NCBI GenBank assembly: GCA_009702045.1 | Contig: WLIV01000004.1 | Coordinates: forward strand, 124,001 to 188,000 | Reading direction: 5' to 3' | Source: Actinomycetota bacterium | Lineage (GTDB): Bacteria > Actinomycetota > Acidimicrobiia > Acidimicrobiales > Ilumatobacteraceae | Length of the DNA: 64,000 nt | Part shown: piece by piece, positions 22,028-49,614 of the stretch | Layout: each line of letters starts with the position of its first letter | Position numbering within the stretch: position 1 is the first letter of the stretch | Translations under genes and position numbers: made by a program | The notes under the pieces: generated by a model | What the model saw: the letters and a program-made list of their open reading frames with translations, nothing else | Told to the model about the DNA's origin: nothing | Database searches by the model: none

Positions 22028-22744
22028 ATGCTTGGAGCGACCGACATCGAACGACTGTTGGTCGTGACCGCACACCCTGATGATGTTGATTTCGGTTCGG
22101 CTGGCACGGTTGCCACGCTCACTGCTCAGGGTGTTCAGATTACATACTGCCTGGTCACTGACGGGGACGCAGGGGGCAGCGACCGCGCTGTCTCCCGTGC
22201 GGAAATGGCCTCGTTGCGTCGCGCCGAGCAGACCTCCGCAGCGGCGCATGTCGGTGTCCACGACCTGATTTTCCTCGGTCATCCCGACGGCCGCGTCGTC
22301 GCCGACCTGTCGCTTCGGCGAGATATCAGCCGGGTCATTCGCCATGTGCGTCCGAACGTCGTGTTGGGGCAGTCGCCAGAACGCAACCTCGACCGCATCT
22401 ACGCAAGCCACCCCGACCACCTGGCCGCCGGCGAGGCGACAATGTGCGCGGTCTACCCGGACGCCCGTAATCCGTTCGCCTTCCCCGAACTCCTCGAAGA
22501 GGGTCTCGAGCCCTGGGCCGTGAAGGAGTTGTGGATCTCCGGTCACGCCACGGTCAGCGATGTCGTCGATGTCACGGAGCACATCGACGCGAAGTTCGCG
22601 GCGTTGCTCTGCCACGCCAGCCAGCACCCCGATCCAGAGGGGATGCAGATCCGAGTCAAGGCCTGGATGGCGGACACGGCACAGGCTCACGGCCTGCCCG
22701 AGGGTCGCTACGCCGAGGGCTATCGAGTCGTCAGTAACCTCTGA
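22028..22744 (+). CDS. PIG-L / LmbE-family zinc deacetylase
   Basis: 238-residue deacetylase of the PIG-L/LmbE family, which includes MshB (mycothiol synthesis) and Mca (mycothiol conjugate amidase). The zinc-site motif is TAHPDDVDFGSAGTV (residues about 14-28) and the second ligand lies in the SHPDH region (about 136-140). SFLGHPDGRV-like LIFLGHPDGRV is also typical. It is shorter than MshB or Mca (about 290-300), so a general N-acyl deacetylase is the safer call. Confidence 0.85.
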   Translation: MLGATDIERLLVVTAHPDDVDFGSAGTVATLTAQGVQITYCLVTDGDAGGSDRAVSRAEMASLRRAEQTSAAAHVGVHDLIFLGHPDGRVVADLSLRRDISRVIRHVRPNVVLGQSPERNLDRIYASHPDHLAAGEATMCAVYPDARNPFAFPELLEEGLEPWAVKELWISGHATVSDVVDVTEHIDAKFAALLCHASQHPDPEGMQIRVKAWMADTAQAHGLPEGRYAEGYRVVSNL

Positions 22745-22759
22745 CCGCTGTCGGCGAGA

Positions 22760-23470
22760 TTACGACCTGAGCTGAAGGTAGACCTCGCACCGACGGTTCA
22801 ACGCAAGACCCGTCGGGGTGTTCTGATCGACACCAGGCAGCGGTTCGGTATCACCCTTGCCAGCTCGCTGAATGGATCCAGCGGGACGACCCAGGAGCGT
22901 TTCCAGGGCCCCGGCGAGGTTGGCGGCGCGCTCGTCGCTGAGCGACTGGCGCCGTTCGACCTTGCCATCGGCGGACGAGTGGCAGACCACAATGATCGGC
23001 AAAGTGGGATCCTGCACGGTGCTGGCCACGGCCTGCAAACTCTCCTTGGACTGAACGGAGAGCACGCTGGAGTTGGCACCGAAGAGCAAGCTGGCGGGGA
23101 TCAGCAGTCGTTGATACTGGTCGGCCAGCGTCGACGCAGTGGGGTCGGTGGTCGCCGGGTCGAGCGGTGAAGCTCCTGCGTCCACCGTGATCTGGCCCCA
23201 CACATCGGCCGAGGCGCCGGCCCACCAGAAGTGGGTCGGGACGGCAGCGCCGACATCGACACCCTCAGCGCCGTGCAGGCGACTTGCCGGTGCCGACACG
23301 CCATCGGACGGCGTGCCGTTCGACGAGAGTAGCGAGTCCAGCGCGCCCTTCGAGTACGCAAAGGCGCCACCCGCGAGTGCCAGGACCGCGACAAAGATCC
23401 CCGAGTACAGGGGAGCTCTGCTCTTTCGTCTCCTTCGTCGGCTCCCACGCCGACGCCGACTGCTACCCAT
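22760..23470 (-). CDS. OmpA-like peptidoglycan-binding membrane protein
   Basis: 236-residue protein. A very basic cytoplasmic N-terminus (about 17 residues, mostly Arg/Lys) is followed by one helix (about 20-40), a linker, and a C-terminal OmpA-like domain (about 120-236). Family residues are visible: HSSADGK (Asp), LSDERAANLAGAL (Arg of the RAxxV motif), GKGDTEPLPG and the closing NRRCEVYLQL. Those residues contact diaminopimelate in peptidoglycan. It is the last gene of the module 24834-23506-22760 on the minus strand and begins 35 nt after the preceding stop, so it probably anchors the module to the wall (inference). Confidence 0.8.
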   Translation of the reverse strand: MGSSRRRRGSRRRRRKSRAPLYSGIFVAVLALAGGAFAYSKGALDSLLSSNGTPSDGVSAPASRLHGAEGVDVGAAVPTHFWWAGASADVWGQITVDAGASPLDPATTDPTASTLADQYQRLLIPASLLFGANSSVLSVQSKESLQAVASTVQDPTLPIIVVCHSSADGKVERRQSLSDERAANLAGALETLLGRPAGSIQRAGKGDTEPLPGVDQNTPTGLALNRRCEVYLQLRS

Positions 23471-23505
23471 TCAGTGGCTCGCTCTCGCCGGTGAGCGGTC
23501 GCGGC

Positions 23506-24816
23506 TCACGAACCTACCGCCACGCGCGTTGGGGTTGGGGTCTTGCCGTTGGTGCCGTTGAACCAAGTCGGCTCTTGCCCCATCTCGTTGATCTCGCGCT
23601 CGACGAGCGGCCAGACGAGGCTCTGCTGCTGTGCGGCACCGTTGGGGAGCGCATCTTCCGGGGCGACGTCGTCCTGGTCGATGATGTCGAGATACGCGGT
23701 CAGGTCCGGCCAATCCACGTCGGGCATGCGCTGCTTCAGCAGCCAGTGGCCACCCTTCTGTGCGATACCGATTGCCTCGCTATTGGCAGACATCGCCGCT
23801 GCGGCGCCGGCCAGCGTCATGTGCCAGGCGGCCTCAGCGCGCTGCCGGTGCTCACGGACGATGTGCTTGGCAGACTCGATGTTGGCGTTGTGCTCTTCGA
23901 TCGCGTCCATCTCGGCGGAGCGCCAGATGTCTTCGGCCTCGATCACGGCCTGTTGCGTCAGATCAATGAACGTGCGGGCTGGGTCGCAGTAGTACCACGA
24001 GCAGGCAAACGATCCGGCGCCGATCATCAGTGCCCACATGCCGAAGGACAGGCCGACACCGAACGAACCTTCGTAGGAGCGGTAGACGGTGATGGCAGCA
24101 CCTGCCAACATTGAGGTTCCCATGAACGCGTACAGGACGCGACGGTTGAGCTTGAGGCTTGCATCGTCCACGCCGAACACGGCTTCCACGACGCGGAGCG
24201 TCTCCTCGTCGCCGCCCTCGTCGCCGAGCTCGTTGCTGCGCTTCACGAACGACTCTCGCCGCAGCTCCTCACCGAGCTTGCCGGAGACCACCACGGCTGC
24301 ACCGACCGCAAGTGCCATGACGGCGGCGATGACCGGCGACTCGCCGCCATAAGTGAGCGCCAACGTCATTCCTGCGGCGTCGCCCATCAGGAACAACAAG
24401 ACCCACAGGTTCTTGCCGACGGCGCCGCTGAAGCGCACGTGCGGTCCGAGGATGCGCTGTGCGTCTGCTTGACGCTGCAGCGCTGCGCGGTAGCTCTGCA
24501 GCATCAGTCGGCGAGCCTTGGCTTGCTGCACTGCTTCGAAACGACGCGACTTGGCGTCGGCCAGCAGTTCGCGGATCGCGGCGCTCGCCCCGGCAGCGTA
24601 GTCGGCGACCTGAGCGCGACCCTGCGCGACGTATTGCGCGGCAACGTGGAGCACGCTGTCGGCTTCGAGTTCGAGCGGCACATCGGCGCCAGGACGCACG
24701 ATGCGAACACCGTTCGCCCATTCGATCGGATCTCGGTCAAGGGTCCGTTCCACAGAGCGGACAGGGGCTGACGTGGCGTCGTCGTTGGTGCGGTTTCGAT
24801 TGCCAAACAAGGACAT
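23506..24816 (-). CDS. Four-helix membrane protein with long cytosolic helices, unknown family
   Basis: 436 residues. Residues 50-125 are helical and charged (probable coiled coil, AAQYVAQGRAQVADYAAGAS...). Helices are predicted at about 135-155, 159-178, 227-245 and 252-274, then a second long helical region (285-360) with many Ala, Glu and His, and a C-terminal tail ending TPTPTRVAVGS. I do not recognise a named family. The start is ATG 24816, with GGAGA about 10 nt upstream on its strand; an ATG at 24837 is the alternative. It lies between a lipoprotein gene and an OmpA-like gene on the same strand and they probably form one envelope complex. Confidence 0.65.
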   Translation of the reverse strand: MSLFGNRNRTNDDATSAPVRSVERTLDRDPIEWANGVRIVRPGADVPLELEADSVLHVAAQYVAQGRAQVADYAAGASAAIRELLADAKSRRFEAVQQAKARRLMLQSYRAALQRQADAQRILGPHVRFSGAVGKNLWVLLFLMGDAAGMTLALTYGGESPVIAAVMALAVGAAVVVSGKLGEELRRESFVKRSNELGDEGGDEETLRVVEAVFGVDDASLKLNRRVLYAFMGTSMLAGAAITVYRSYEGSFGVGLSFGMWALMIGAGSFACSWYYCDPARTFIDLTQQAVIEAEDIWRSAEMDAIEEHNANIESAKHIVREHRQRAEAAWHMTLAGAAAAMSANSEAIGIAQKGGHWLLKQRMPDVDWPDLTAYLDIIDQDDVAPEDALPNGAAQQQSLVWPLVEREINEMGQEPTWFNGTNGKTPTPTRVAVGS

Positions 24817-24833
24817 GTTTGATGATCTCCAGC

Positions 24834-25583
24834 TCATGAGGCGATGTTGGTGGTGAAGACCGAGCACTTTGCTCCGGTCGAGTTGCACAGCTGTTGGGCG
24901 TACTCGGTTGCCACGGCCACGACCTGTTGCGGTGGCTGATCGGCGCCGCCGACGCGACCGATCCCATAGAGGCTGATCTCAATGTCGGACAGATCGGGGA
25001 GCTGCTGTTGCGAGACGATCGTGGCCACTTGGTCGCTGGTGAGGAAGGGAAGGTTGATCGAGCCGGAGCCGACCGTCGAGATCCCGTCAGCGAACACGTG
25101 GACCGACAGGGTGTTGGTCGCCAAGGAGTGGGACCTCGCGAAGTCGTTGATGATCGAGAAGGCTGCGACCAGATCATGCCCTGACGCCGGAGCCTTGGCG
25201 AACAGGTCGTTGAGTTTGCCGCGGATGTCGTTCATGACACCACTAACAACTTCTGGAAGCCTGCGGTCGCGGCCGATTTCGGAGGCGCCGGTCGTGGTGA
25301 TGGAACCCTTGTACAGCACGGCGGACGTAGAGGAGGATTCGCTCCAGGCCACCACGGTGAGGTCTCCCTCGCAATCGGCGACGCGCTCTGCGTCGACCTG
25401 GATGGCGTCGAGTCGCTCGCCGAGCAAGGTCTCGTCGCGGCCGTCGGCGGAGACGTCGAGCAGGGAGAGTTGCATCAGGCGTTGTGCGGGACAGGCGAAG
25501 TTGTAATCGCTGTTACTGGCCGCGCCGCAGCCAGTCAAGGCTCCTGCGAGCACAGAAAAAGACAACAATGACAATAGACGCAC
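24834..25583 (-). CDS. Lipoprotein with vWA-like domain, unknown function
   Basis: 249-residue predicted lipoprotein: RLLSLLSFSVLAGALTGCG with lipobox LTGC. The mature part looks like a von Willebrand A-type fold: a first strand with LSLLDVSADGRD (MIDAS-like D-x-S), a hydrophobic strand LTVVAWSES, then LSVHVFADGISTVG and IEISLYGIGRVGG. The MIDAS is imperfect, so metal binding is doubtful. GTG at 25583 is chosen because it gives a compact signal peptide and has TAGTGT 7 nt upstream; TTG at 25619 would add 12 residues. First gene of the three-gene module, divergent from the thiolase across an 18-bp palindrome. Confidence 0.62.
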   Translation of the reverse strand: MRLLSLLSFSVLAGALTGCGAASNSDYNFACPAQRLMQLSLLDVSADGRDETLLGERLDAIQVDAERVADCEGDLTVVAWSESSSTSAVLYKGSITTTGASEIGRDRRLPEVVSGVMNDIRGKLNDLFAKAPASGHDLVAAFSIINDFARSHSLATNTLSVHVFADGISTVGSGSINLPFLTSDQVATIVSQQQLPDLSDIEISLYGIGRVGGADQPPQQVVAVATEYAQQLCNSTGAKCSVFTTNIAS

Positions 25584-25590
25584 GCAATAT

Positions 25591-25596
25591 ACACTA
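25591..25596 (-). promoter_or_regulatory. Leaderless-type -10 (TAGTGT) for lipoprotein gene
   Basis: TAGTGT on the minus strand lies 7 nt before the GTG at 25583, in a locally AT-rich stretch. Confidence 0.4.
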
Positions 25597-25650
25597 CTAA
25601 GCACAGGACCCGACAACAAGCAAATCTGTGATTTCTCGCGCCGAAAGTGG

Positions 25651-25668
25651 TCGAACGTGCACGTTCGA
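25651..25668. promoter_or_regulatory. Perfect 18-bp palindrome, candidate operator
   Basis: TCGAACGTGCACGTTCGA is its own reverse complement. It sits between the divergent lipoprotein module (start 25583) and thiolase (start 25743), about 60 bp upstream of the thiolase -10. Perfect symmetry of this length suggests a homodimeric regulator (TetR, MarR or similar). The half-sites resemble an actinobacterial LexA box, but the spacer is 6 rather than 4 nt. Confidence 0.55.
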
Positions 25669-25730
25669 TGAAAGAGACGTCACTCTCGGTGCGTCCGTCG
25701 TTCGATCCTGCGCAGCCGGCTACCGGTGGG

Positions 25731-35978: not shown

Positions 35979-37808
35979 GTGAGCGAAGAGCATCAATCCA
36001 GCACCATCCAGACTGACGTCGCGCCCGACCCGGACTCAGGTCGTGGGGGGCGTTGGTTGACCAGAACTCGGTCGTCGTCGGCCGGCGGCACTCCGTTGCC
36101 GTTGTCCCCCATGTCCGGGGCCATGGTCCCGATGCGATTGGGCGACTTACTCGCGGCGCGTGGCAAGGTCACCGGCGACCAGATCCGCGACGCATTGCTC
36201 GCGCAGAACTCGGGCGGCGGTCGGCTCGGTGCCACCCTGGTGGCGTTGGGCTTGTTGACCGAGCGGGAACTCGCCGAAGCGCTGTCTGAGCAGTCTGGTC
36301 TCGACCTGATCGACTTGGCGCGCGAGGAGATCGACCGCGACATCGCCATGTTGCTGCCCGAGAGCGACGCCCTGCGCTTGGTGGCGCTTCCGATCCGTAG
36401 CGACGGCCAGCGCATCGACGTTGCAGTCGCCGACCCGTATGCGGCCGACCTGCAGCCCAACTTGATCGAGTTGCTGGGCAAACCGGTACGTCTCCATGTT
36501 GCTGCCTCGCCCGACATCCTCGACTCCATTTCTGCGTTGTACGTCCGTAGCGGCGACATGGACGATGTGCTCAAGGTGTTCGAGACCCGCGCCCAGTCGC
36601 GCAAGCGCACCGCCGACGGTGCCGGTGTCACGGTGGTGGATGAGAACGCTCCCATCGTGCGAGTCATCAACCTGATTCTCGAACAGGCAATGCGTGAGCG
36701 GGCCAGCGACGTGCACATCGAACCCCAGGAAGACTCCGTGCGCATCCGCGTGCGCACCGACGGAGCGCTGCACCAGATCATGACGCTGCCCGATGGGATG
36801 GGCGCCCCGTTGATGTCGCGAATCAAGGTGATGGCCAATCTCAACATCGTCGAGCGTCGTCGCCCGCAGGACGGCAACTTCACCGTCGAGGTGCTGGGGA
36901 AGGATGTCGACGTGCGCGTTGCCACGTCACCAACGGTCTTCGGTGAGATGGCGGTGCTGCGACTGCTCGACAAGAGCCGTAGCTTCTTCGAGTTGTCCCG
37001 CCTGGGTATGTCGCCTGAGACCGAGGCCCGCTACCAGGAACTGATTCGGATGCCGTTCGGTCTCGTGGTGTGTGCCGGCCCGACGGGAGCTGGGAAGACC
37101 ACGACGCTGTACGCAACGTTGGCGGCAGTGAACGGCGACCACCTCAAGGTCTCCACCATTGAGGATCCGGTCGAGTACGTCATCCCCGGTATCAGCCAGA
37201 TCCAGATCCACGAACAGTCGGGTCTCACCTTCGCCACCGGTCTGCGGGCCATCCTGCGTCAAGACCCCGACACGGTGCTGGTCGGCGAGATTCGCGACGT
37301 CGAGACCGCTCGGATCGCGGTGCAGGCCGCCCTCACCGGTCACTTCGTGATGTCCTCGCTGCACGCCACCGACGCCAGCGCGGCGCTGCACCGCTTCCTC
37401 GACATGGGTATTGAGCCGTATCTGCTGGCGTCATCGCTGACAGGTGTGGTGGGGCAACGTCTGCTGCGACGCAACTGTCCGAGATGTTCCGTCAGCTACA
37501 CCCCGCCCGTGGCTGAGGTCGCGTTCCTTGAGCGGGTGTTGGGCCACACGCTGGAAGGAACGTTCACGCGTGGCGAAGGGTGCAACCTGTGTCGCAACAC
37601 CGGGTACTTCGAGCGAGTCGGCGTGTACGAGGTGCTCGCCGTGACCGATGAGATCCGCGAGCTGATGGTGCGTCATGCCACTCAATCCGAAGTGCGTGAC
37701 CTGGCTCAACAACAAGGTATGCGCACACTCGCCCGCCAAGCGGTCGAGTTGGCGTTGGAAGGTGCGACGACCTTGTCTGAGGTCCTGAGAACAGTGGCGG
37801 TGGTCTGA
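35979..37808 (+). CDS. pilB: Type IV pilus assembly ATPase PilB (GspE family)
   Basis: 609-residue hexameric ATPase that powers pilus extension from the cytosolic face. An N-terminal T2SSE_N/MshEN-like domain (about 50-190; LGDLLAARGKVTGDQIRDAL) precedes the ATPase: ASDVHIEPQED, Walker A GPTGAGKTTT (about 367-376), Asp box TIEDPVEY, Walker B RQDPDTVLVGEIRD and His box SSLHATDA. The tetracysteine zinc site CPRC...CNLC (near 500-535) is characteristic of PilB/GspE rather than PilT. GTG at 35979 with AGAGG upstream. First gene of a six-gene operon with overlapping codons. Confidence 0.93.
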   Translation: MSEEHQSSTIQTDVAPDPDSGRGGRWLTRTRSSSAGGTPLPLSPMSGAMVPMRLGDLLAARGKVTGDQIRDALLAQNSGGGRLGATLVALGLLTERELAEALSEQSGLDLIDLAREEIDRDIAMLLPESDALRLVALPIRSDGQRIDVAVADPYAADLQPNLIELLGKPVRLHVAASPDILDSISALYVRSGDMDDVLKVFETRAQSRKRTADGAGVTVVDENAPIVRVINLILEQAMRERASDVHIEPQEDSVRIRVRTDGALHQIMTLPDGMGAPLMSRIKVMANLNIVERRRPQDGNFTVEVLGKDVDVRVATSPTVFGEMAVLRLLDKSRSFFELSRLGMSPETEARYQELIRMPFGLVVCAGPTGAGKTTTLYATLAAVNGDHLKVSTIEDPVEYVIPGISQIQIHEQSGLTFATGLRAILRQDPDTVLVGEIRDVETARIAVQAALTGHFVMSSLHATDASAALHRFLDMGIEPYLLASSLTGVVGQRLLRRNCPRCSVSYTPPVAEVAFLERVLGHTLEGTFTRGEGCNLCRNTGYFERVGVYEVLAVTDEIRELMVRHATQSEVRDLAQQQGMRTLARQAVELALEGATTLSEVLRTVAVV

Positions 37809-39019
37809 TGACTGCGTTCGTGTATACCGCCGTCGATGTCGACGGCAAGGACGTGAAGGGCAAGATCGATGCGGTCGACGAGCCGGATGCTCGCCGACTG
37901 CTGATGCTGCAGAACCTCGATGTTCGTCATGTCAGCGGTCGCATTCCGCTGATGCAGCGCGAGCTCGGCGGTAAGGAGAAGGTCAAGCAGACCGACATCC
38001 TGCACTTCAGCCGCCAGATGGCGGCGTTCGTGCACGCCGGCCTGCCGGTGATCGATGGTCTCGACATCATCTCCCGTTCCACATCGAACAAGACGTTCGC
38101 CGACGCGTTGCACGACATGCGCGACCAGATTCGTCAGGGCGTGCCCTTCGTTGATGCGCTTGCGCAGCATGAATCAATGCTGCCCAGTTACTACTTGGGC
38201 ATCGTGCGCTCGTCAGAGCTAACAGGCCGCCTCGATGTAGCCCTCGAGCATCTCGCTGTCTACATGGAGCGCGAGCATGAGGCGCGCAGTCGCATCAAGT
38301 CGGCGCTGGCATATCCATCGGTCATCGTTGGTATGTCGGTGGTGTCGGTGATCGTGCTGTCCGTGTTCGTGTTGCCCAAGTTCGTGTCGCTCTTCGAGGA
38401 GCTGCACGCGACGTTGCCGCTCACCACGCGCATGCTGATGAACTTTGCCAACTTCTCGTCGAGCTACTGGTGGACGTACCTCGTGGCGATCGGCGGCTTC
38501 GTCATCGGTGTGCAATGGATGCGCAAGCAGGCAGCGACCAAGCGCTTTCTCGACCGAATGCTCTTGAAGGTGCCACTCATCGGTGAAGTGGTGCTGTTCT
38601 CCGGAGTCGAGCGTGTCTGCCGGATTCTGGCCACGATGTGGGAGGCCGGTGTGCCGATCGACAACGCGATGGTGGCTGCCATCCAGAGTTCGAACAACAC
38701 GGTCATCGCCGGCAAGCTCCGAACGATCCAGGAGGCGGTGCTGGAAGGCGACGGCCTGGCCGAGCCGTTCGCTGCCGCCGACATCTTCCCCGATGCCGCC
38801 GTGCAAATGATCACTGTCGGTGAGGCCACTGGAACGCTCGCCGACCAGTTGCTCGGGGCAGCCGACTTCTACGAGCGAGAGATCGAGTTCAAGCTCAAGC
38901 GCCTCACTACGTACTTCGAGCCGCTGATCATCATCATGGTGAGCTTCGTCGTCGGTTTCGTCGCCGTTGCTCTCGTGCAGGCCATGTACGGCTCCCTGAG
39001 CAGTTCGCAGCTGAAGTGA
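37808..39019 (+). CDS. pilC: Type IV pilus inner-membrane platform protein PilC (GspF family)
   Basis: 403-residue polytopic platform protein. Two GspF domains are visible, with FSRQMAAFVHAGLPVIDGLDI in the first and FSGVERVCRILATMWEAGVPIDNAM in the second; helices lie near 165-190, 215-235 and 372-395. It couples PilB rotation to pilin extraction. Its ATG uses the last base of the pilB stop. Confidence 0.93.
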   Translation: MTAFVYTAVDVDGKDVKGKIDAVDEPDARRLLMLQNLDVRHVSGRIPLMQRELGGKEKVKQTDILHFSRQMAAFVHAGLPVIDGLDIISRSTSNKTFADALHDMRDQIRQGVPFVDALAQHESMLPSYYLGIVRSSELTGRLDVALEHLAVYMEREHEARSRIKSALAYPSVIVGMSVVSVIVLSVFVLPKFVSLFEELHATLPLTTRMLMNFANFSSSYWWTYLVAIGGFVIGVQWMRKQAATKRFLDRMLLKVPLIGEVVLFSGVERVCRILATMWEAGVPIDNAMVAAIQSSNNTVIAGKLRTIQEAVLEGDGLAEPFAAADIFPDAAVQMITVGEATGTLADQLLGAADFYEREIEFKLKRLTTYFEPLIIIMVSFVVGFVAVALVQAMYGSLSSSQLK

Positions 39020-39450
39020 TGAACCGGCCAGACCCTCGCGACCGTGGCTACACGTTGCTGGAACTGCTGGCAGCCATGGCCATCATGAGCATCGCGTTCG
39101 CCGCCATCTTCGCGGGCCTGGGTATGTTCTTGCGTACCGAGAGGGTGCAGGGTGCCCAGGCGCAACTCGACGTGAGCCTGCGCTCGTACGCGGAGCAACT
39201 GTTGGGCGTTACCTACGTCAACTGTGCCACCCCGTCAACGGCCACATATGCCGCGGTGACGGTCCCGACGGACGTGCACGCCAAGGCCTACACAAAGTCG
39301 GTCACGATCAAGTACTGGAACGGCGATCTGCCGGCCACATGGGCGTCGTCGTGCACTACCGGGAACGACAAAGGGTTGCAGCAGATCACCATCCAACTGA
39401 CCGGTAGCGATGGCGAGAAGGGCACCTTGACGATCGGTAAGGCGCAATGA
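39019..39450 (+). CDS. Type IV prepilin-like protein (minor pilin 1)
   Basis: 143 residues with a class III signal: DRGYTLLELLAAMAIMSIAF, with cleavage expected after the glycine and Glu at mature position 5. The C-terminal domain has a possible disulfide (NCATPS and SSCTTG). ATG at 39019 shares the pilC stop; GTG at 39016 is an alternative. A pseudopilin or minor pilin. Confidence 0.85.
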   Translation: MNRPDPRDRGYTLLELLAAMAIMSIAFAAIFAGLGMFLRTERVQGAQAQLDVSLRSYAEQLLGVTYVNCATPSTATYAAVTVPTDVHAKAYTKSVTIKYWNGDLPATWASSCTTGNDKGLQQITIQLTGSDGEKGTLTIGKAQ

Positions 39451-39998
39451 AGCGCGATCGAGGGTTCACGCTCACCGAGCTGATCGTTGCCGTCGCGATC
39501 GTCGCGATCATCTCCACCAGCGTCGGTGCGGCACTGATCACTGGGTTGCGGATCACTTCCAACACCTACTCGAAGTTCGATCAGAGCAACGCTGAGCTGG
39601 CCGTCACCCGCTTCTTGTCCGGCGACATCTACGCTGCTGAAGGGCCAATCGTCTACAACAGCTCCAGTGATGCCACCTGTGGCGGTGTGGCCAACCCGGG
39701 GCTGAAGCTCAAGTCGCGTACTGACGCCACGGCCGATCTGGCGGGAACCAACATCACCACCGTGGTGTGGGCGTTGTCGGGCACCGACGTGATGCGCCGC
39801 ACGTGTGTGAATGGTGTGCAGACCGATTCGTTCCGAGTTGCGGGTGGCATCAGCGCGTTCACGCCCACCGGGTGCTCGAACCCGTGCAGGAACCTGACGG
39901 TCAGTGTCACGTTCAAGGCTGCAGCGGTGGGCACCAACGGGAAAGTCCCCGAGCGGTCATGGACCCTCAAGGTCACTCGTCGTGGAGTCACCGCGTGA
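39447..39998 (+). CDS. Type IV prepilin-like protein (PilW-like minor pilin 2)
   Basis: 183 residues; prepilin signal KRDRGFTLTELIVAVAIVAI with Glu+5. The C-terminal domain has four or more cysteines (ATCGG, RRTCVNG, TGCSNPCRN). PilW/GspJ-like by size and position. Overlaps its neighbours by 4 nt on both sides. Confidence 0.85.
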   Translation: MKRDRGFTLTELIVAVAIVAIISTSVGAALITGLRITSNTYSKFDQSNAELAVTRFLSGDIYAAEGPIVYNSSSDATCGGVANPGLKLKSRTDATADLAGTNITTVVWALSGTDVMRRTCVNGVQTDSFRVAGGISAFTPTGCSNPCRNLTVSVTFKAAAVGTNGKVPERSWTLKVTRRGVTA

Positions 39999-40321
39999 AA
40001 CGTTCACCTACTGCCACCGACCGGGGCTTCACGCTCATCGAGATCATCGTTGCCATCGTGATCGTGGGCATTATCTCCACCGTGGTCACCTTCTCGATGC
40101 GCGCCCTGTTGAGCAACAGCAGCAAGAAGACCTGCACCGTGGAGGTTCACAAGGTGAACACCGCAATTCAGGCGTATTATTCTGAGAACAAGGTCTGGAT
40201 CACCACCCTGACCCTCAGTTCTCTGGTGCCCGATTACCTGACCACTGCGCCGTCAGCATCCTCCCCGTCTGGTGCAGGAACTGTTGACGCCGCTCACACC
40301 TACAAGGGGTCGAAGTGTTGA
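39995..40321 (+). CDS. Type IV prepilin-like protein (major-pilin-like 3)
   Basis: 108 residues; signal DRGFTLIEIIVAIVIVGIIS with Glu+5, then an N-terminal helix and a short globular part (CTVEVHKVNTAIQAYYSEN, LSSLVPDYL, GSKC at the end) like small PilA/GspG-type pilins. This is the best candidate in the operon for a major subunit, although its position among minor pilins leaves that open. GTG at 39995. Confidence 0.83.
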   Translation: MKRSPTATDRGFTLIEIIVAIVIVGIISTVVTFSMRALLSNSSKKTCTVEVHKVNTAIQAYYSENKVWITTLTLSSLVPDYLTTAPSASSPSGAGTVDAAHTYKGSKC

Positions 40322-42369
40322 ACAACGAACAGCACACACACGAACGACATGGCAGAGACGAGGGCGCTGCACTCGTCATGGCGATCGCGTTCGTCACCGT
40401 CATTGGGCTACTCCTTGCCGGATCGCTGAGCTATGCAGCGGTGAGCATGAAAGCCTCGTCGCACCGGTACACGCCGGCGCGCAATCGGCTCTACGGTGCC
40501 GATGCAGCCACCAAGGCAGCGATGCACTATGTGGGCGACCACCCTGAAGCTGGTCAGGCGCTGCCCGGTGTCACGTGTAATGCATCCAAGACCTACGGCA
40601 CCGTGGGCACGGAGTCGGTCGGCGTTCAGATTTGTCCGCAAGGCGTTGGCGCCGCAGGTTCGTTCCCCACACCGGGTTCGGTCTTCTGGGGTCTGGTGAC
40701 GCTCGCCACCGGCTCCGATAAGGGTCTCACGATGACGGGGAACAACCCGTTCCAGATCAACGGCAACGTGTACTCGAACACCGATGTCAACGTCGCTGGC
40801 ACCGGCTCGCTGATCGTGAAGCAGGGCAGCCTGTATGCGGGCAGTTGCGCTGGAACCGGCACGATCACCGTCGACGGCACGAAGAATTGTGCTGCCACTG
40901 GGAAGGGCACCGCGAATGATCCGGATTACCTGCCGGGCATCACTGCTCAGCCCAGCGATGCCACGATCGTCAAGGCCTGTGGCAGCTCCGGGACTGCGTC
41001 CACGCGCGTGGTGGAGATCGGGCCAGGGAACTGGACGGCCGCGATTTTCACCGCGGTGAAGGGGTGCGCCAATGTCTGGCTGAAGCCCGGTATCCATTAC
41101 CTAGAAGGCCTCGGTTCCTGGTCGATCACCAACAAGGTGGTTGCCGGCGCCACGACCAACGGCACCTCTTCCGGCATTCCGGCGGCGGCGGTACCGGGGG
41201 GCTGCGACGACACCAAAGATGGTGCGATGCTCTTTCTGGCGGGTAACACCACCATCACTGTGGCGACGGCCGTCAGCCCAGCAACGAGCAGCAGTCTGCA
41301 GGTGTGCGGCAAGAACGTCCTGCAGGCAAGCGGTCGCACGGTGGAGATCCCGTTGTACGACTCCACCACCGATATCGGCGGGCACACCGACTCTGACACG
41401 CTGACGACCGGCTCCAACAGCACCGTCAGCGACAGTTCGTGCTCGACCGACAACAGCCACGGTGACAGCAACGGCAACGGTGGAGGCGGCGGCGTCTCGA
41501 GAGCCATCCATCAGCCCGGCAAAGTGGGCGACGGCGGTGGCGGCGACGGTGGCGGTGGCGGTGGCACCACCACCTGTGAGTGGTCGAACCGTAACAATGC
41601 CAAGTTGATCGACACCACCATCGCTACGGACACGGGCGTTACCAAGAGCGCTCGTACCTCCACGCTCACCATCACCAAGTACGCCGGTGCCGGAGCGATC
41701 CCGTCTTCGGTCGATCAGCTCACGGTCAAGGTCACGGCCCTCGCCACCCGTACCAGCGGCAGCGGCAGCGCCAACGGCAACTACAGCATCAAGGTCCTCA
41801 ACTCCGACGGCACCACCGCGTGTAACGCGTCTGGAGGGCACACCATGGCCACCGGCAGCACGCTGCCGACAACGCCCGATACGTTCACCGTGAACTGCAA
41901 CACCGGGATGACTGCGCCACTGCAGGTTGAGTTCTATGCGACCGCCAGCAACTCGGACGGAACGCGCGCCGTAAAACTTGACGGTATCGAACTCAGCTAT
42001 AGCGTTGATGTGGCCGGGACGTTGCTCAAGCACACCGCAGGTCTCACCTCGATCACCGCCACTACCAGCAGTGCCCCAGTGTGGTTCGGCGGCGAGATCT
42101 ACCTTCCCGCATCGGCGATGTCGCTGAAGGCCAGTGCACTCAACGGTGTGGTCTCGACGTTGGGTGCCGTGATGTACCGCCTGATCTACAGCGCCGACCA
42201 CAGCGCGGCGGATGTGCTGGCCTCGGCCAACAACGTCTACACCGCGGGTGGCGACATCCTGGTCAAGACCCAGGTGGGTGCCAAAGACTGGGTGACCTGT
42301 CGCATCGCATTGGCCCTAGCGAGTGGCCTCGGCACCCCGACACTCAAGGGCTGTACCGTCCCGCGCTGA
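40315..42369 (+). CDS. Large PilX-like surface protein, Gly/Ser/Thr-rich
   Basis: 684 residues. After a basic leader the helix DEGAALVMAIAFVTVIGLLLAG (about 13-34) matches the PilX N-terminus (no cleavage Gly-Phe with Glu+5). The ectodomain has paired cysteines and low-complexity linkers: NGNGGGGG and VGDGGGGDGGGGGGTTT near residues 383-420. The C-terminal part looks like beta-sandwich repeats (SARTSTLTITKYAG, VDQLTVKVTALATR). Probably a pilus-tip or pilus-associated adhesin (inference). GTG at 40315 overlaps the upstream stop; TTG at 40318 is possible. Confidence 0.75.
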   Translation: MLNNEQHTHERHGRDEGAALVMAIAFVTVIGLLLAGSLSYAAVSMKASSHRYTPARNRLYGADAATKAAMHYVGDHPEAGQALPGVTCNASKTYGTVGTESVGVQICPQGVGAAGSFPTPGSVFWGLVTLATGSDKGLTMTGNNPFQINGNVYSNTDVNVAGTGSLIVKQGSLYAGSCAGTGTITVDGTKNCAATGKGTANDPDYLPGITAQPSDATIVKACGSSGTASTRVVEIGPGNWTAAIFTAVKGCANVWLKPGIHYLEGLGSWSITNKVVAGATTNGTSSGIPAAAVPGGCDDTKDGAMLFLAGNTTITVATAVSPATSSSLQVCGKNVLQASGRTVEIPLYDSTTDIGGHTDSDTLTTGSNSTVSDSSCSTDNSHGDSNGNGGGGGVSRAIHQPGKVGDGGGGDGGGGGGTTTCEWSNRNNAKLIDTTIATDTGVTKSARTSTLTITKYAGAGAIPSSVDQLTVKVTALATRTSGSGSANGNYSIKVLNSDGTTACNASGGHTMATGSTLPTTPDTFTVNCNTGMTAPLQVEFYATASNSDGTRAVKLDGIELSYSVDVAGTLLKHTAGLTSITATTSSAPVWFGGEIYLPASAMSLKASALNGVVSTLGAVMYRLIYSADHSAADVLASANNVYTAGGDILVKTQVGAKDWVTCRIALALASGLGTPTLKGCTVPR

Positions 42370-44676: not shown

Positions 44677-46122
44677 ATGTCCCTCACCCGATCCGAAATC
44701 GTCGAGCAACTGCGGGCACTCGTCGGCGTCCACCAGGTCGTCATCGACGAGCAGACGCTTCGTGAGCGCAGTATCGACAACTTCCGCAAGCTGCAGAACA
44801 TCTTCAACGTCTACACGGGTCCTTTCCCAGCGGCGGTGGTGAGCGTGCGCAGCACCGCGGAGGCTGCCGCCGTGTTGGCTTTCGCCGACGCGAATGGCGT
44901 GAACGTGGTGGCGCGCACGGGAGGCACCGCCACCGAGGGCGGCCTGGAAACGCCGGTGGAGAACTCGATCGTGCTCGACGGCGGGTTGATGAACCAGATC
45001 CTCACCATCGACACGTACAACATGCAGGCGACTGCGCAGTGCGGTGTTCCCCTCCAACGACTGGAGGACGAGGTGCGCAAGCACGGTCTCACCACCGGCC
45101 ACTCGCCGCAGTCGAAGCCGATTGCCAGCATGGGCGGACTGGTGGCCACGCGGAGCATCGGGCAGTTCTCCACGCTGTACGGCGGTATCGAGGACATGGT
45201 CGTGGGCTGTGAAGTCGTGTTCCCCGGTGGTCAGGTGTCGCGGATCAAGAACGTGCCGCGTCGTGCCGCCGGCCCCGACATCCGCCATCTGGTGATCGGG
45301 AACGAAGGTGCGTTGTGCTTCATCACCGAGGTGACGGTGAAGCTGTTCCCGTACATGCCGGAGAACAACACGTTCGTGGGCTGGACGATGAAGGACATGA
45401 AGGTCGGCTTCGAGGTGCTACGTGAGGTGATGGTGGCCGGCTACAAGCCGTCCGTCGCCCGCCTGTACGACTATGAGGACGGTCAACTGCACTTCTCGAA
45501 CTTCGTGCCTGCTGACGAGTGCATCGTGCTGTTCATGGCCGAGGGCAACGAGGGGATCGTGAAGGCCACTGCAGAAGGCATCCGCGAGATCGCAGCCACG
45601 CATCCGGGATGCACGCCGGTGGAGGCGCATCACCTGGAGGAGTGGTTCGCTGATCTGGTGTGGGGCCCCGACAAGGTGACCCGCGAGGACAATCGCATCC
45701 GCGACACCCGCAACGTCAACCGCACCACTGAGGTGTCTGCTGACTGGAGCTCGATCCAGCAGATCTACGACGCGGTGATCCCGCGCATCCGCGCCGAGAT
45801 CAAGGGCATCACCCTGCTGGGCGGCCACTCGTCGCACAGCTACATCAACGGCACGAACATGTACTTCAACTACTTCTACGACCTCATCGACTGCGAGCCG
45901 GTGGACGAGACCGAGAAGTACTACCTGCCGATCATCAAGATCATCGTCGAGGAGACGTTGCGGTTCGGTGGATCGATCGTGCACCACCACGGCATCGGCA
46001 AGGCACGCGCTCGCTGGGTGAAGGATGAGTACGGGTCGTCGTACCCAATGCTCGCCGCGTTGAAGACTGCCTTCGATCCGAACGGCGTGATGAACATGGG
46101 AACCATCTACCCACTCACGTGA
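44677..46122 (+). CDS. FAD-linked dehydrogenase (YgcU / alkyl-DHAP synthase-like, VAO fold)
   Basis: 481-residue vanillyl-alcohol-oxidase-fold flavoprotein. The FAD domain has ARTGGTATEGGLETP and SKPIASMGGLVATRSIGQFSTLYG; the C-terminal domain has the histidine-rich IVHHHGIGKARARW motif shared with alkyl-dihydroxyacetone-phosphate synthases and YgcU. AAAGGA lies 11 nt before the ATG. It ends the SDR-kinase-FAD operon and overlaps the convergent acyltransferase gene by 8 nt. Probably oxidises a hydroxy acid or keto-sugar phosphate (inference). Confidence 0.85.
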   Translation: MSLTRSEIVEQLRALVGVHQVVIDEQTLRERSIDNFRKLQNIFNVYTGPFPAAVVSVRSTAEAAAVLAFADANGVNVVARTGGTATEGGLETPVENSIVLDGGLMNQILTIDTYNMQATAQCGVPLQRLEDEVRKHGLTTGHSPQSKPIASMGGLVATRSIGQFSTLYGGIEDMVVGCEVVFPGGQVSRIKNVPRRAAGPDIRHLVIGNEGALCFITEVTVKLFPYMPENNTFVGWTMKDMKVGFEVLREVMVAGYKPSVARLYDYEDGQLHFSNFVPADECIVLFMAEGNEGIVKATAEGIREIAATHPGCTPVEAHHLEEWFADLVWGPDKVTREDNRIRDTRNVNRTTEVSADWSSIQQIYDAVIPRIRAEIKGITLLGGHSSHSYINGTNMYFNYFYDLIDCEPVDETEKYYLPIIKIIVEETLRFGGSIVHHHGIGKARARWVKDEYGSSYPMLAALKTAFDPNGVMNMGTIYPLT

Positions 46123-48250
46123 CCTCGAGCGACGCCTTCACCAACAGCGTGAGGTAGGGCGCGAGGAACAGGCTGTAGGTGTTGTTGATGTGGTTCGTGT
46201 CGAGGTACACGGCCATGTTGCCAATCACCGCAGGGCACACGTCGGCGCTGCAGAACCAGTCGCTGGTGTCGTAGAACAGCGCCCCGGTTCGGGCGGCGAG
46301 ATCGCGTTCCAGCTCGTTCTCGCGGGTGTCGACGTTCCTCGTGACGCTCAGGTTGCAGCCGCTGATATGGCGCGGTCGGCTTGCCAGGCAGCGGTCGACC
46401 TGCCGTCCGGCGATCGGAGTGTCGCTGAGCAGCAACACTTTCTTGCCGGCGGCAGTGAGAGTGGTGATCGTGTGCTCCAGTGCCGCGGCCCACGTTGCGT
46501 CGGAGATGGACCGCAACTGGCCGCCTACGTTGCGGAAGTAGTGCTTGCGCCACTGGTTGATGATGACCAACTGGGTGTCGGAGGCGGCGATGGCAGCGAT
46601 CGAATTGGCCCTCCACTTGTCGCACGCCGGATAGGTCGTGGCCTTGTCGCGCATCACGGACATCGTGGCGGCGGAGCAGATCTTCTTGGCGACGACGTCG
46701 AGGCGCCAGTGCTGTTCGGTCGCGGCGGCCTCCAGCCCGGTGAACCATTGCGTGACGTGGCTGTCGCCGAAGATCGTGATCGCCAGCGGCGCGCCGACAT
46801 CGCCGCGCTGGCAGCCGGACGGTGAGGTTCCACTGAAGCTGACGAGGCAGCCATCGGTCCAGATGCCGAAGTCGTCCCCGGCCTGCTTGCTGACCGGGGG
46901 TGTGATGTTCTCTGGCAGCAGATCGTTGGTTGCCGAGGCAGCGATCAGCGGCTGCAACTCCTGGGCGATCTTTGCGTCGAGCTGCTGCTGCCACGAAGGT
47001 GGTGGCACGGTGCTTGCAGTCTCAGCAGTCGTGCTGGTGGCCGTAGTCGTGCTGGTGGATGCACTCGTGCTGGCGGCCGTGGGCGCCACGTAGCCAGTGC
47101 TGAAGTGCACATCGTCGGTCGCCCGACCGACGATCACTGCGCCGCCGAGCACCAGCGCGATCGTCACGGCACCCATGATCAGCGAACGGCGTGCGGATCG
47201 CGTCAACAGTGGATGGTGGCGCAGCGGATTCTCCAGTAACCAGAAGCTCAATGCGGCCAGTGCGACTGCACCGACGAGCACACCGGCCCGCTGCAGAACA
47301 CTGGGAGCGTCGATCCGATCGTGGAGAATCATCAGTAGCGGCCAGTGCCAGAGGTAGATGCCGTACGATCGCCCGCCGATCCACTGCAGCGGGGCGAGCG
47401 ATAGCAGCTGGCCGGGGGCGCCGCTGGCGCCGATCGACAGGATGACGGCCACCGTGCCCAGCACGGGCACGAGCGCGGCGATTCCGGGGAACGGTGTGGC
47501 GGCGTCGAACCGGAAGATGCTGTAACCGATCGCGGCCAGCCCCAACCAGCCCAGCAGCGAGCGCCACGGCAGCCGGTGGCGCGCCGCGAAGGCGAATGCA
47601 CACAACGCACCCAGGGCGAGCTCCCACGCCCGCGACCAACTTGCGAAGTAGCCCCACACCGGGTTCGTGCGAGTGAGGTGGACGCCGAGAGTCAGGCTGG
47701 CTCCGGTGACGACGAGGCACACCGCCACGCCGGCCCGGGTGAGGTTGCGGCCCAGTCGCCAGGTGAGCGCCAGCAGCCCGGGCCACACCACGTAGAACTG
47801 CTCCTCCACGGCCAGCGACCACCAGTGCTGTAGCAACGAGGGTGGGCGAGTGGCTTGCAGGTAGTCGGCGCCGACCGCGGCGAAGTGGAAGTTCGCGAGG
47901 AAGCCGCCGGCCCACAACGTGTCGGTTGCGGTCTGGTGAGCGCGCACCGGGTCGAGCAGCCAGTCGGCCAGCACCAGCGTCACCAGCAGGACGAGCGTGG
48001 CAGTCGGCAGCAGACGGCGGGCGCGACGCGCATAGAAGTTGCGCAATGAGATGCGATGGGTCGATTCGTGCTCGCGCCGCAGCAGTGACGTGATCAGGAA
48101 ACCGGAGACGACGAAGAACACATCGACACCGACGTAGCCGCCGCTGAACCCGAATCCGGCGTGATACAAGAGCACGCTGGCGACAGCGACTGCCCGCAGG
48201 CCTTCAATCTCGCCCAACAGGGGCGACTCCCTCTGGGTGGAGACTGCCAT
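46115..48250 (-). CDS. Acyltransferase-3 / SGNH fusion (OafA/PatA-type O-acyltransferase)
   Basis: 711-residue membrane protein. An Acyl_transf_3 domain with about ten helices (about 10-375) begins with EIEGLRAVAVASVLLYHAGF (catalytic His) and has GGYVGVDVFFVVSGFLI. A Ser/Thr/Ala-rich linker (about 385-420) joins an extracytoplasmic SGNH hydrolase domain (about 440-710) with ITIFGDSHVTQW and the terminal DTNHIN (Asp-His). Such proteins O-acetylate peptidoglycan, polysaccharide or other glycans. ATG at 48250 has TAGGCT 8 nt upstream, overlapping the sensor kinase stop. Confidence 0.88.
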   Translation of the reverse strand: MAVSTQRESPLLGEIEGLRAVAVASVLLYHAGFGFSGGYVGVDVFFVVSGFLITSLLRREHESTHRISLRNFYARRARRLLPTATLVLLVTLVLADWLLDPVRAHQTATDTLWAGGFLANFHFAAVGADYLQATRPPSLLQHWWSLAVEEQFYVVWPGLLALTWRLGRNLTRAGVAVCLVVTGASLTLGVHLTRTNPVWGYFASWSRAWELALGALCAFAFAARHRLPWRSLLGWLGLAAIGYSIFRFDAATPFPGIAALVPVLGTVAVILSIGASGAPGQLLSLAPLQWIGGRSYGIYLWHWPLLMILHDRIDAPSVLQRAGVLVGAVALAALSFWLLENPLRHHPLLTRSARRSLIMGAVTIALVLGGAVIVGRATDDVHFSTGYVAPTAASTSASTSTTTATSTTAETASTVPPPSWQQQLDAKIAQELQPLIAASATNDLLPENITPPVSKQAGDDFGIWTDGCLVSFSGTSPSGCQRGDVGAPLAITIFGDSHVTQWFTGLEAAATEQHWRLDVVAKKICSAATMSVMRDKATTYPACDKWRANSIAAIAASDTQLVIINQWRKHYFRNVGGQLRSISDATWAAALEHTITTLTAAGKKVLLLSDTPIAGRQVDRCLASRPRHISGCNLSVTRNVDTRENELERDLAARTGALFYDTSDWFCSADVCPAVIGNMAVYLDTNHINNTYSLFLAPYLTLLVKASLEVT

Positions 48251-48258
48251 TGAGTCGG

Positions 48259-48264
48259 AGCCTA
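48259..48264 (-). promoter_or_regulatory. Leaderless-type -10 (TAGGCT) for acyltransferase, embedded in kinase stop
   Basis: TAGGCT on the minus strand ends 8 nt before the ATG at 48250; its TAG is the stop codon of the sensor kinase (48262-48264). Confidence 0.45.
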
Positions 48265-49614
48265 ATGGGGGAGGGTGAGCACGACCTGCAATCCGCCTTC
48301 GGGTGCGTCGGCGAGCGTCAGCGATCCACCAGACGCCCTCGCGAGAGAAACGGCGATGGGCAGACCCAGCCCGGTTCCTGTCGCCGTGGGATGCTGGCGC
48401 CAGAACCGACGGGTGGCCCGCTGCTTGTCCTCGTCGGAGAGTCCGGGTCCTTGGTCGCTGACGCTGAGGGTGCACCGGTCGTGTTGCTGCGCTACCCGCA
48501 CCACGATCGTGGAGCCCGACGGTGAGACGTTGAGGGCGTTATCCAACGTGTTGTCGAGGATCTGCTCAACCGCACCAGCGGCAGCGGATGCCAGCACAGG
48601 GGCCTCGGCACCTTCCACTCGCAGCGTCACGCCCGACAGTTCAGCAAGGGCGCTCCAGGTGTCCGTGCGCTGGAGTGCGAGGTTGGCGAGATCCACCTCG
48701 ACAACGGGCTGCGCTTCGTCAGCACGCGCCAGTTGCAGCAGATCGGCCACCAGCGTGGCCAATCGCGTGGTTTCATCAATTGCCGCGTCCAACTCCTCGG
48801 CATCGGCATTGTTCATCCGCGCCTGCAGGTTCTCCAGCCGCAGTCGCATAGCCGTCAGCGGGGTGCGCAATTGGTGCGAGGCATCGGCGACGAACGAGCG
48901 CTGTTCCTCCAGCATGACTGCGAGGCGGTCTGCCATGAGCGTCATGGTGGCCGACAGCGCCCGCAACTCGGGCGGCCCATCGTCGCCGACCTCTTTCGTG
49001 GTGAGATCGCCCTCGGCGAAGCGACGGGCAGCGCGCTCGAGACGACGGATCGGGCGAGTGACGGAACGAGCGATGACCCACCCGACAGAGGCCATCACCG
49101 CCAAGATGGTGAGGCCGATGAGCACCAGACCCAGCCAAAACCGATGCACGGTGGAGTCCACTCGACTGGTAGCGAGTGTGATGCGCAATGCTCCGTGCAC
49201 TGCGTCACCGGACGTGATGGGGAGTGCCACGTAGACGAAGTCGCTCTGAAGTGTGGAGGAGTAGCGAGTGCCGCTCGAATACCGTCCAGCGAGTGCCTCG
49301 GCGATTTCCGGTCTGGTGGACAGATCGCGACGAATCGGTTGCTCGGTGTCGATCAGCGAGGTTCCCTCAGCATCGACCACGACCACCCGGGCGCCCGTGC
49401 GGTCTTCGTACGTCAGAGCGGCCTGCGGGTCGGGGGTGATGCCGTTCTGTAGATCGTCCTCGTAAATGCCAGCGATGACGTACGCGTCATGCTCGATGCC
49501 ACCGGTGAAACGTTCCACCTCGCGCTGCGCGAAGAAGATTGCCAGCGGCAACTCCAGCAACAGCAGTACGACGACCGTGATCGTGAGGTAACCGAGCAGC
49601 AGACGTTTGGTCAC
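48262..49614 (-). CDS. Sensor histidine kinase
   Basis: 450 residues: helix 1 (about 5-28), an extracytoplasmic sensor of about 130 residues (DUF-like, 30-160), helix 2 (about 160-182), HAMP (RSVTRPIRRLERAARRFAEGDL), H-box VADASHQLRTPLTAMRLRLE with the phosphorylated His near residue 247, then N, D and G boxes (NTLDNALNVSP, DQGPGLS, GTGLGLPIAVSLARA). GTG at 49614, 4 nt after the response regulator stop. Signal unknown. Confidence 0.92.
   Translation of the reverse strand: MTKRLLLGYLTITVVVLLLLELPLAIFFAQREVERFTGGIEHDAYVIAGIYEDDLQNGITPDPQAALTYEDRTGARVVVVDAEGTSLIDTEQPIRRDLSTRPEIAEALAGRYSSGTRYSSTLQSDFVYVALPITSGDAVHGALRITLATSRVDSTVHRFWLGLVLIGLTILAVMASVGWVIARSVTRPIRRLERAARRFAEGDLTTKEVGDDGPPELRALSATMTLMADRLAVMLEEQRSFVADASHQLRTPLTAMRLRLENLQARMNNADAEELDAAIDETTRLATLVADLLQLARADEAQPVVEVDLANLALQRTDTWSALAELSGVTLRVEGAEAPVLASAAAGAVEQILDNTLDNALNVSPSGSTIVVRVAQQHDRCTLSVSDQGPGLSDEDKQRATRRFWRQHPTATGTGLGLPIAVSLARASGGSLTLADAPEGGLQVVLTLPH

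Follow-up and report, generated by a model that had tools for sequence, protein, structure and literature searches.

A stretch of 64,000 nucleotides (the window; G000:C34:124001-188000, from a 3.65-Mb genome that is 99% complete) contains three consecutive genes that raise the question of whether they form one envelope module, how they came to this locus, and what their products might do together. The genes, P0001, P0002, and P0003, are arranged head to tail on the minus strand from 25583 to 22760 in the ORF list, with gaps of 17 bp and 35 bp between consecutive ORFs. All three ORFs were thus found where the sequence-only reading had placed three same-strand genes.

Gain and distribution of the cassette

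In the closest relative (G349, with a thiolase 99.8% identical), 36 bp separate PIG-L from thiolase, compared with 2,995 bp in the window. Homology to G349 in blastn ends at window position 22744 and restarts at 25704, and a comparison with G335 agrees within about 13 bases, delimiting an inserted segment at 22745 to 25703 that holds the entire cassette. PIG-L adjoins thiolase in 9 of the 14 relatives, and because these genes are adjacent in nine relatives, the cassette was most likely gained in the window genome. The alignments accordingly describe what is most likely a clean gain of ~2.96 kb between the PIG-L and thiolase genes. Spread of the cassette probably occurred by horizontal transfer. 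The G+C content of the cassette is 0.64, and both this value and third-position G+C match those of the host. A transposon origin was considered and rejected, as the segment ends have neither terminal repeats nor a transposase. The intergenic stretch 5' of P0001 (25584 to 25703), which lies between divergent genes and inside the inserted segment, presumably contains the cassette promoter; the sole sigma-70-like match in a consensus scan is at 25568 to 25595 on the opposite strand and carries no evidence of function. In another species of the genus (G211:C17, 4725-11597), the PIG-L-thiolase interval holds ~7 kb with genes for a permease, two TrkA-like proteins, and a large protein whose start resembles a cyclase, indicating that this interval varies between species.

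We found P0002 homologues in 5 of 221 genomes of the family (the window genome, G392, G440, G453, and G488), with the cassette present in 1 of 15 genomes of its own genus and in 4 of 29 genomes of a second genus (g173). No second copy of P0002 was found in the window's own genome. Beyond the window genome, we detected no true match in overlapping samples drawn from the order (298 genomes), the class (395), and the phylum (396). The idea that the gene order might be conserved across the Acidimicrobiia was therefore not borne out; the module is rare and patchy, with the window's own copy as the single true match among the 395 class genomes. Where the cassette occurs, its three-gene order and direction are identical in all five copies across two genera, and P0001 was never found without P0002 in 150 genomes of the family. 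These findings support the earlier proposal that the genes are one module, with no stand-alone vWA gene in those 150 genomes and no independent scattering of the three genes in relatives. Since the cassette has different flanking genes in each genus (KatG and aldo-keto reductase genes are also among the neighbors), the triplet itself is the conserved unit. The dN/dS values were 0.03 to 0.18 among the g173 copies for all three genes, which are therefore real genes under purifying selection.

In three g173 genomes, a TetR gene lies divergently next to the cassette. We rejected it as a fourth part of the module: the window lacks it, stop codons interrupt it in G392, and G467 carries a homologue despite having no cassette. 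The stop codons in G392 lie within a TetR-family gene at G392:C37:7904-8422, and the cassette in that genome is intact.

Scans of genome contigs, viral contigs, and plasmids returned no real relatives of P0001 or P0002, and a phage set scanned for P0002 alone returned no relative of this protein. The genome-contig scans used single sequences and exact peptide patterns and so miss moderately diverged relatives; the evidence for the absence of the cassette elsewhere comes from samples and from pattern scans blind to distant sequences. Three weak matches were discarded. A plasmid match to P0001 (E 0.3) is antisense to an annotated gene, a weak P0002 profile match in G322 is prenyltransferase-like (MenA-type) by sequence, and a weak match in G338 (E 7.8e-4) covers the same profile stretch as that in G322 and was taken to be of the same kind. 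In two Rhodobacterales plasmids (CP049030 and NZ_CP109790), we observed OmpA-family proteins beside caspase-family and DUF4384 proteins, with ExbD genes in one of the two; this neighborhood differs from that of the cassette and looks conflict-like.

The patchy presence of the cassette (1 of 15 and 4 of 29 genomes) and its gain as a compact unit are in keeping with a phage-defense or conflict cassette, in which P0003 and the vWA-like lipoprotein would detect an envelope breach and P0002 would permeabilize the membrane or recruit a cytosolic partner. The exposed parts also change faster. Moreover, Zorya defense requires peptidoglycan binding by ZorB (PMC11890865), described conflict systems include OmpA, extracellular vWA, and SLATT membrane parts (PMC7159879), and three P0002 homologues gave very weak holin-like Pfam matches (best E 0.049). 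However, none of the three proteins has a PADLOC match, the cassette encodes no nuclease, NTPase, or toxin domain, and no copies were found in the phage, plasmid, and viral contig sets. The neighbors are metabolic (P450, PIG-L, and thiolase in the window; KatG and aldo-keto reductase at other loci) rather than a defense island. Taken together, we consider a role in conflict unlikely.

The OmpA-domain protein and the four-helix membrane protein

P0003 (22760 to 23470, minus strand), delineated from its ORF, PF00691, a PDB profile, and a five-copy alignment, is a protein of 236 residues with an Arg/Lys-rich N terminus, one membrane helix at about residues 21 to 39, a linker, and an OmpA-like domain at about residues 121 to 236. 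The profile matches leave the presence of an OmpA domain certain. PF00691 matched residues 129 to 211 with an E value of 3.4e-9 (37.4 bits, compared with a curated cutoff of 27.2), and a PDB profile search matched the OprF C-terminal domain (5u1h; E 3.2e-9), with matches to OprF, YiaD, YfiB, and Rv0899 ranging from 3e-9 to 1e-5. Both the Arg/Lys-rich tail and the OmpA domain of the earlier reading thus stand, whereas the peptidoglycan-binding site is atypical. P0003 carries H164-S165-S166 where most OmpA domains carry His-Thr-Asp, and S166 replaces the usual diaminopimelate-binding Asp in all five copies. H164, R181, and a C-terminal NRR, all of which serve peptidoglycan binding in this domain type, are kept, with R181 and NRR present in 5 of 5 copies. 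ZorB of Zorya II likewise has a Ser in this position (S143, which the paper pairs with D188 of ZorB I) and yet binds peptidoglycan in vitro (PMC11890865), so the loss of the Asp in P0003 does not exclude wall binding. Other proteins with an OmpA fold, such as YiaD, YfiB, OprF, and mycobacterial Rv0899/OmpATb, differ from P0003, which has an N-terminal membrane helix and a basic cytosolic tail and lacks the diaminopimelate-binding Asp.

P0002 (23506 to 24816, minus strand; ORF, single-sequence fold, and five-copy hydropathy) encodes an orphan membrane protein of 436 residues, with membrane helices near residues 131 to 156, 161 to 187, 218 to 246, and 252 to 274. Two of these helices passed the hydropathy cutoff in the window copy and all four passed in the g173 copies. 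A single-sequence AlphaFold model, poor overall (pLDDT 48) but with clear secondary structure, runs from a helix of 75 residues through two successive membrane hairpins to a helix of 64 residues. The helical arms (residues 49 to 123 and 279 to 342) thereby flank the membrane part, and the loop between helices 2 and 3 is short. Hydropathy on five copies and this low-confidence model agree on the four membrane helices that had been proposed, and the model also shows the long arms, which are likely cytosolic. The arms are also the best-conserved part of P0002, with 68 to 75% and 61 to 63% identity to the g173 copies, compared with 47 to 53% for the second hairpin. Within the first membrane helix, Asp146 is invariant.

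We detected no catalytic motif in P0002, no family among Pfam, NCBIfam, PHROGs, PADLOC, and PDB, and no significant match in a fold search with the model. A match to an unrelated known enzyme family, which would have overturned the proposed module, was not observed in these profile searches. By these comparisons, P0002 is a family of its own, within no known family. SLATT effectors, which are predicted pore formers of conflict systems (PMC7159879), resemble P0002 in having a membrane hairpin with long helices, but P0002 differs in having two hairpins and did not match SLATT in Pfam.

A helical membrane protein with a cytosolic extension and a single-helix OmpA protein with a cytosolic tail broadly repeat the parts list of a 5:2 ion-driven stator or energizer, in which P0002 would take the place of the A subunit and P0003 that of the B subunit. 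The invariant Asp146 that P0002 carries in its first membrane helix would suit such an assembly. ZorAB of Zorya, MotAB, ExbBD, and TolQR share this pairing of a helical membrane protein that has a long cytosolic part with a tailed, single-helix protein of the OmpA type, and a Ser in place of the wall-binding Asp is common to ZorB II and P0003. Nevertheless, MotA_ExbB (PF01618) was unmatched by P0002 and three of its homologues even at E 10, which upholds the initial impression that no MotA/ExbB homology is visible. All five copies of P0003 lack Asp and Glu in the membrane helix, although Asp24 of ZorB and its equivalents are essential (PMC11890865). Furthermore, the arms of P0002 are at both ends of the protein, and just a short loop connects helices 2 and 3. 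Compared with Zorya and other 5:2 motors, the cassette also adds a vWA-like lipoprotein and lacks ZorC, ZorD, and ZorE, and its proteins have no PADLOC match to Zorya. The likeness to stators and wall-linking energizers was therefore not supported, and we regard an ion-driven motor as highly improbable.

The lipoprotein and its vWA-like motifs

P0001 (24834 to 25583, minus strand; ORF, alignments, and single-sequence fold) encodes a protein of 249 residues that begins at a GTG start and has a signal peptide followed by the lipobox LTGC, with Cys19 predicted to be lipidated. The lipobox conforms to the bacterial lipoprotein pattern of [LVI][ASTVI][GAS]C behind a signal peptide. Across the five copies, the lipoboxes are LTGC, LAGC, LAGC, and LVGC, with a less regular MASC in G392. 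Besides the lipidated Cys, Cys 31, 71, 233, and 240 of P0001 are invariant in all copies, as are Cys 163 and 228 of P0003, which fits an extracytoplasmic place for both exported domains.

In the window copy, vWA-like motifs are found at residues 43 to 47 (motif 1, DVSAD), 135 to 138 (motif 2, GHDL), and D166 (motif 3). Compared with the MIDAS pattern of DxSxS, Thr, and Asp, the g173 copies read DLSSS...GSDL...TD and the window copy DVSAD...GHDL...AD. A single-sequence AlphaFold model of low confidence (pLDDT 39) predicts a beta-alpha order of strands and helices of the vWA type; in a Foldseek search, this model had no significant fold match and no vWA structure among the matches listed. P0001 did not match vWA in Pfam even at E 10, vWA homology was not detected against PDB profiles, and an HMM of the host's own vWA domains gave no score above those of shuffled sequences. 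An hhalign comparison with vWA placed motifs 2 and 3 in register, but with an E value of 0.19. The vWA-like fold thus appears at the level of motifs and of predicted strand-helix order, with every profile test negative, and is unproven. Of the lipoprotein with a MIDAS-like vWA domain that had been proposed for P0001, the lipoprotein was substantiated by the signal peptide and LTGC; the MIDAS-like vWA domain was not, as the motif is incomplete in the window copy and has no profile match.

Several described systems combine comparable parts. FtsZ-like 1 (FtsZl1) operons (PMC2875224) and GAP1-N2 GTPase-centered systems (PMC7159879) join exported vWA proteins, in some cases with OmpA-family and unassigned membrane proteins, and occur in Actinobacteria as well. 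The cassette might then be a reduced relative whose tubulin-like or GTPase partner is encoded elsewhere in the genome or has been lost, which we consider quite improbable. No tubulin-type signature (GG[GTSA]G[ST]G) was found in the window or in the regions flanking the homologous loci, and genes for a GTPase, a kinase, or GAP1 are not evident beside the cassette. The comparison also established no sequence similarity between the cassette proteins and the vWA or membrane proteins that those operons encode. TolQ-linked vWA force transducers (PMC12204202) likewise pair an extracytoplasmic vWA domain with a helical membrane protein; their vWA domain forms a fusion with a transpore or SHLS helix, and the partner is a TolQ homologue, whereas the cassette has a lipoprotein and an orphan. 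The nearest described systems therefore have different gene sets, defined by tubulin, GTPase, kinase, or TolQ genes that the cassette lacks, in line with the earlier view that no named system has this composition, and the cassette is a genuine orphan module.

A possible wall-coupled complex

The reading that we tentatively favor, with less than even confidence, is that the cassette encodes a wall-coupled sensor or gate in the form of a peptidoglycan-tethered transmembrane complex. P0003 would sit in the cytoplasmic membrane and grip the cell wall via its OmpA domain, and P0001 would be lipid anchored on the outer face of this membrane, where its vWA-like domain may bind a ligand or partner; if the host had an outer membrane, P0001 could be located there instead. 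P0002 would be the membrane hub, with its two antiparallel helical arms forming a cytosolic stalk. A change in the distance to the wall, or binding of an outside ligand, might be relayed by P0003 and P0001 to the P0002 helices, which could respond by altering the cytosolic arms or a path through the membrane helices. The arms are the best-conserved segments of P0002, as expected if they carry the output. Several points count against a sensor or gate: none of the genes next to the cassette encodes a cytosolic partner, NTPase, kinase, or effector enzyme that could serve as its output, both structural models are of low confidence, no profile search supports the vWA fold, and the MIDAS-like motif is degenerate in the window copy.

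A purely structural tether fits nearly as well. As a passive wall tether or surface attachment, the cassette would use P0002 as a scaffold, P0003 to fix it to the wall, and P0001 as an adhesin-like vWA protein, with no signaling or ion flow. OmpA domains serve as tethers in known systems, P0002 has neither a catalytic motif nor a family match, and the two exported proteins diverge faster than P0002 (about 40% versus 56% identity), which is frequent in surface proteins. Such a tether has no obvious need for long, strongly conserved cytosolic arms or for an invariant Asp146 inside a membrane helix, and we find this explanation plausible but somewhat unlikely.

Because P0002 forms its own family and all three genes are passed on together, the cassette is a candidate for a new membrane complex coupled to the wall, and one that is both small and testable. 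Its broad parts, an OmpA domain, a likely vWA lipoprotein, and a helical hub, recur in motors, phage defense, and membrane-remodeling operons, but the cassette lacks the ion-carrying residue and the NTPases on which those systems depend. A sensor or gate of this kind, if real, would work with fewer parts than known systems. More speculatively, and in our estimation with a low probability, the cassette could be an undescribed, mobile, and minimal sensor-gate tethered to the wall, with a core formed by a new family of four-helix proteins whose paired arms reach into the cytosol. It would sense wall damage or an outside ligand (for example, during phage entry) and act through the membrane without an NTPase or nuclease.

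The window also encodes other envelope-related functions. A type IV pilus or type II secretion-like cluster at 35979 to 42369 includes genes for an MshEN-domain ATPase, an inner-membrane platform protein, and pseudopilin-like proteins. An acyltransferase-3 membrane domain fused to an SGNH domain, encoded at 46115 to 48475, is likely a surface-glycan O-acyltransferase.
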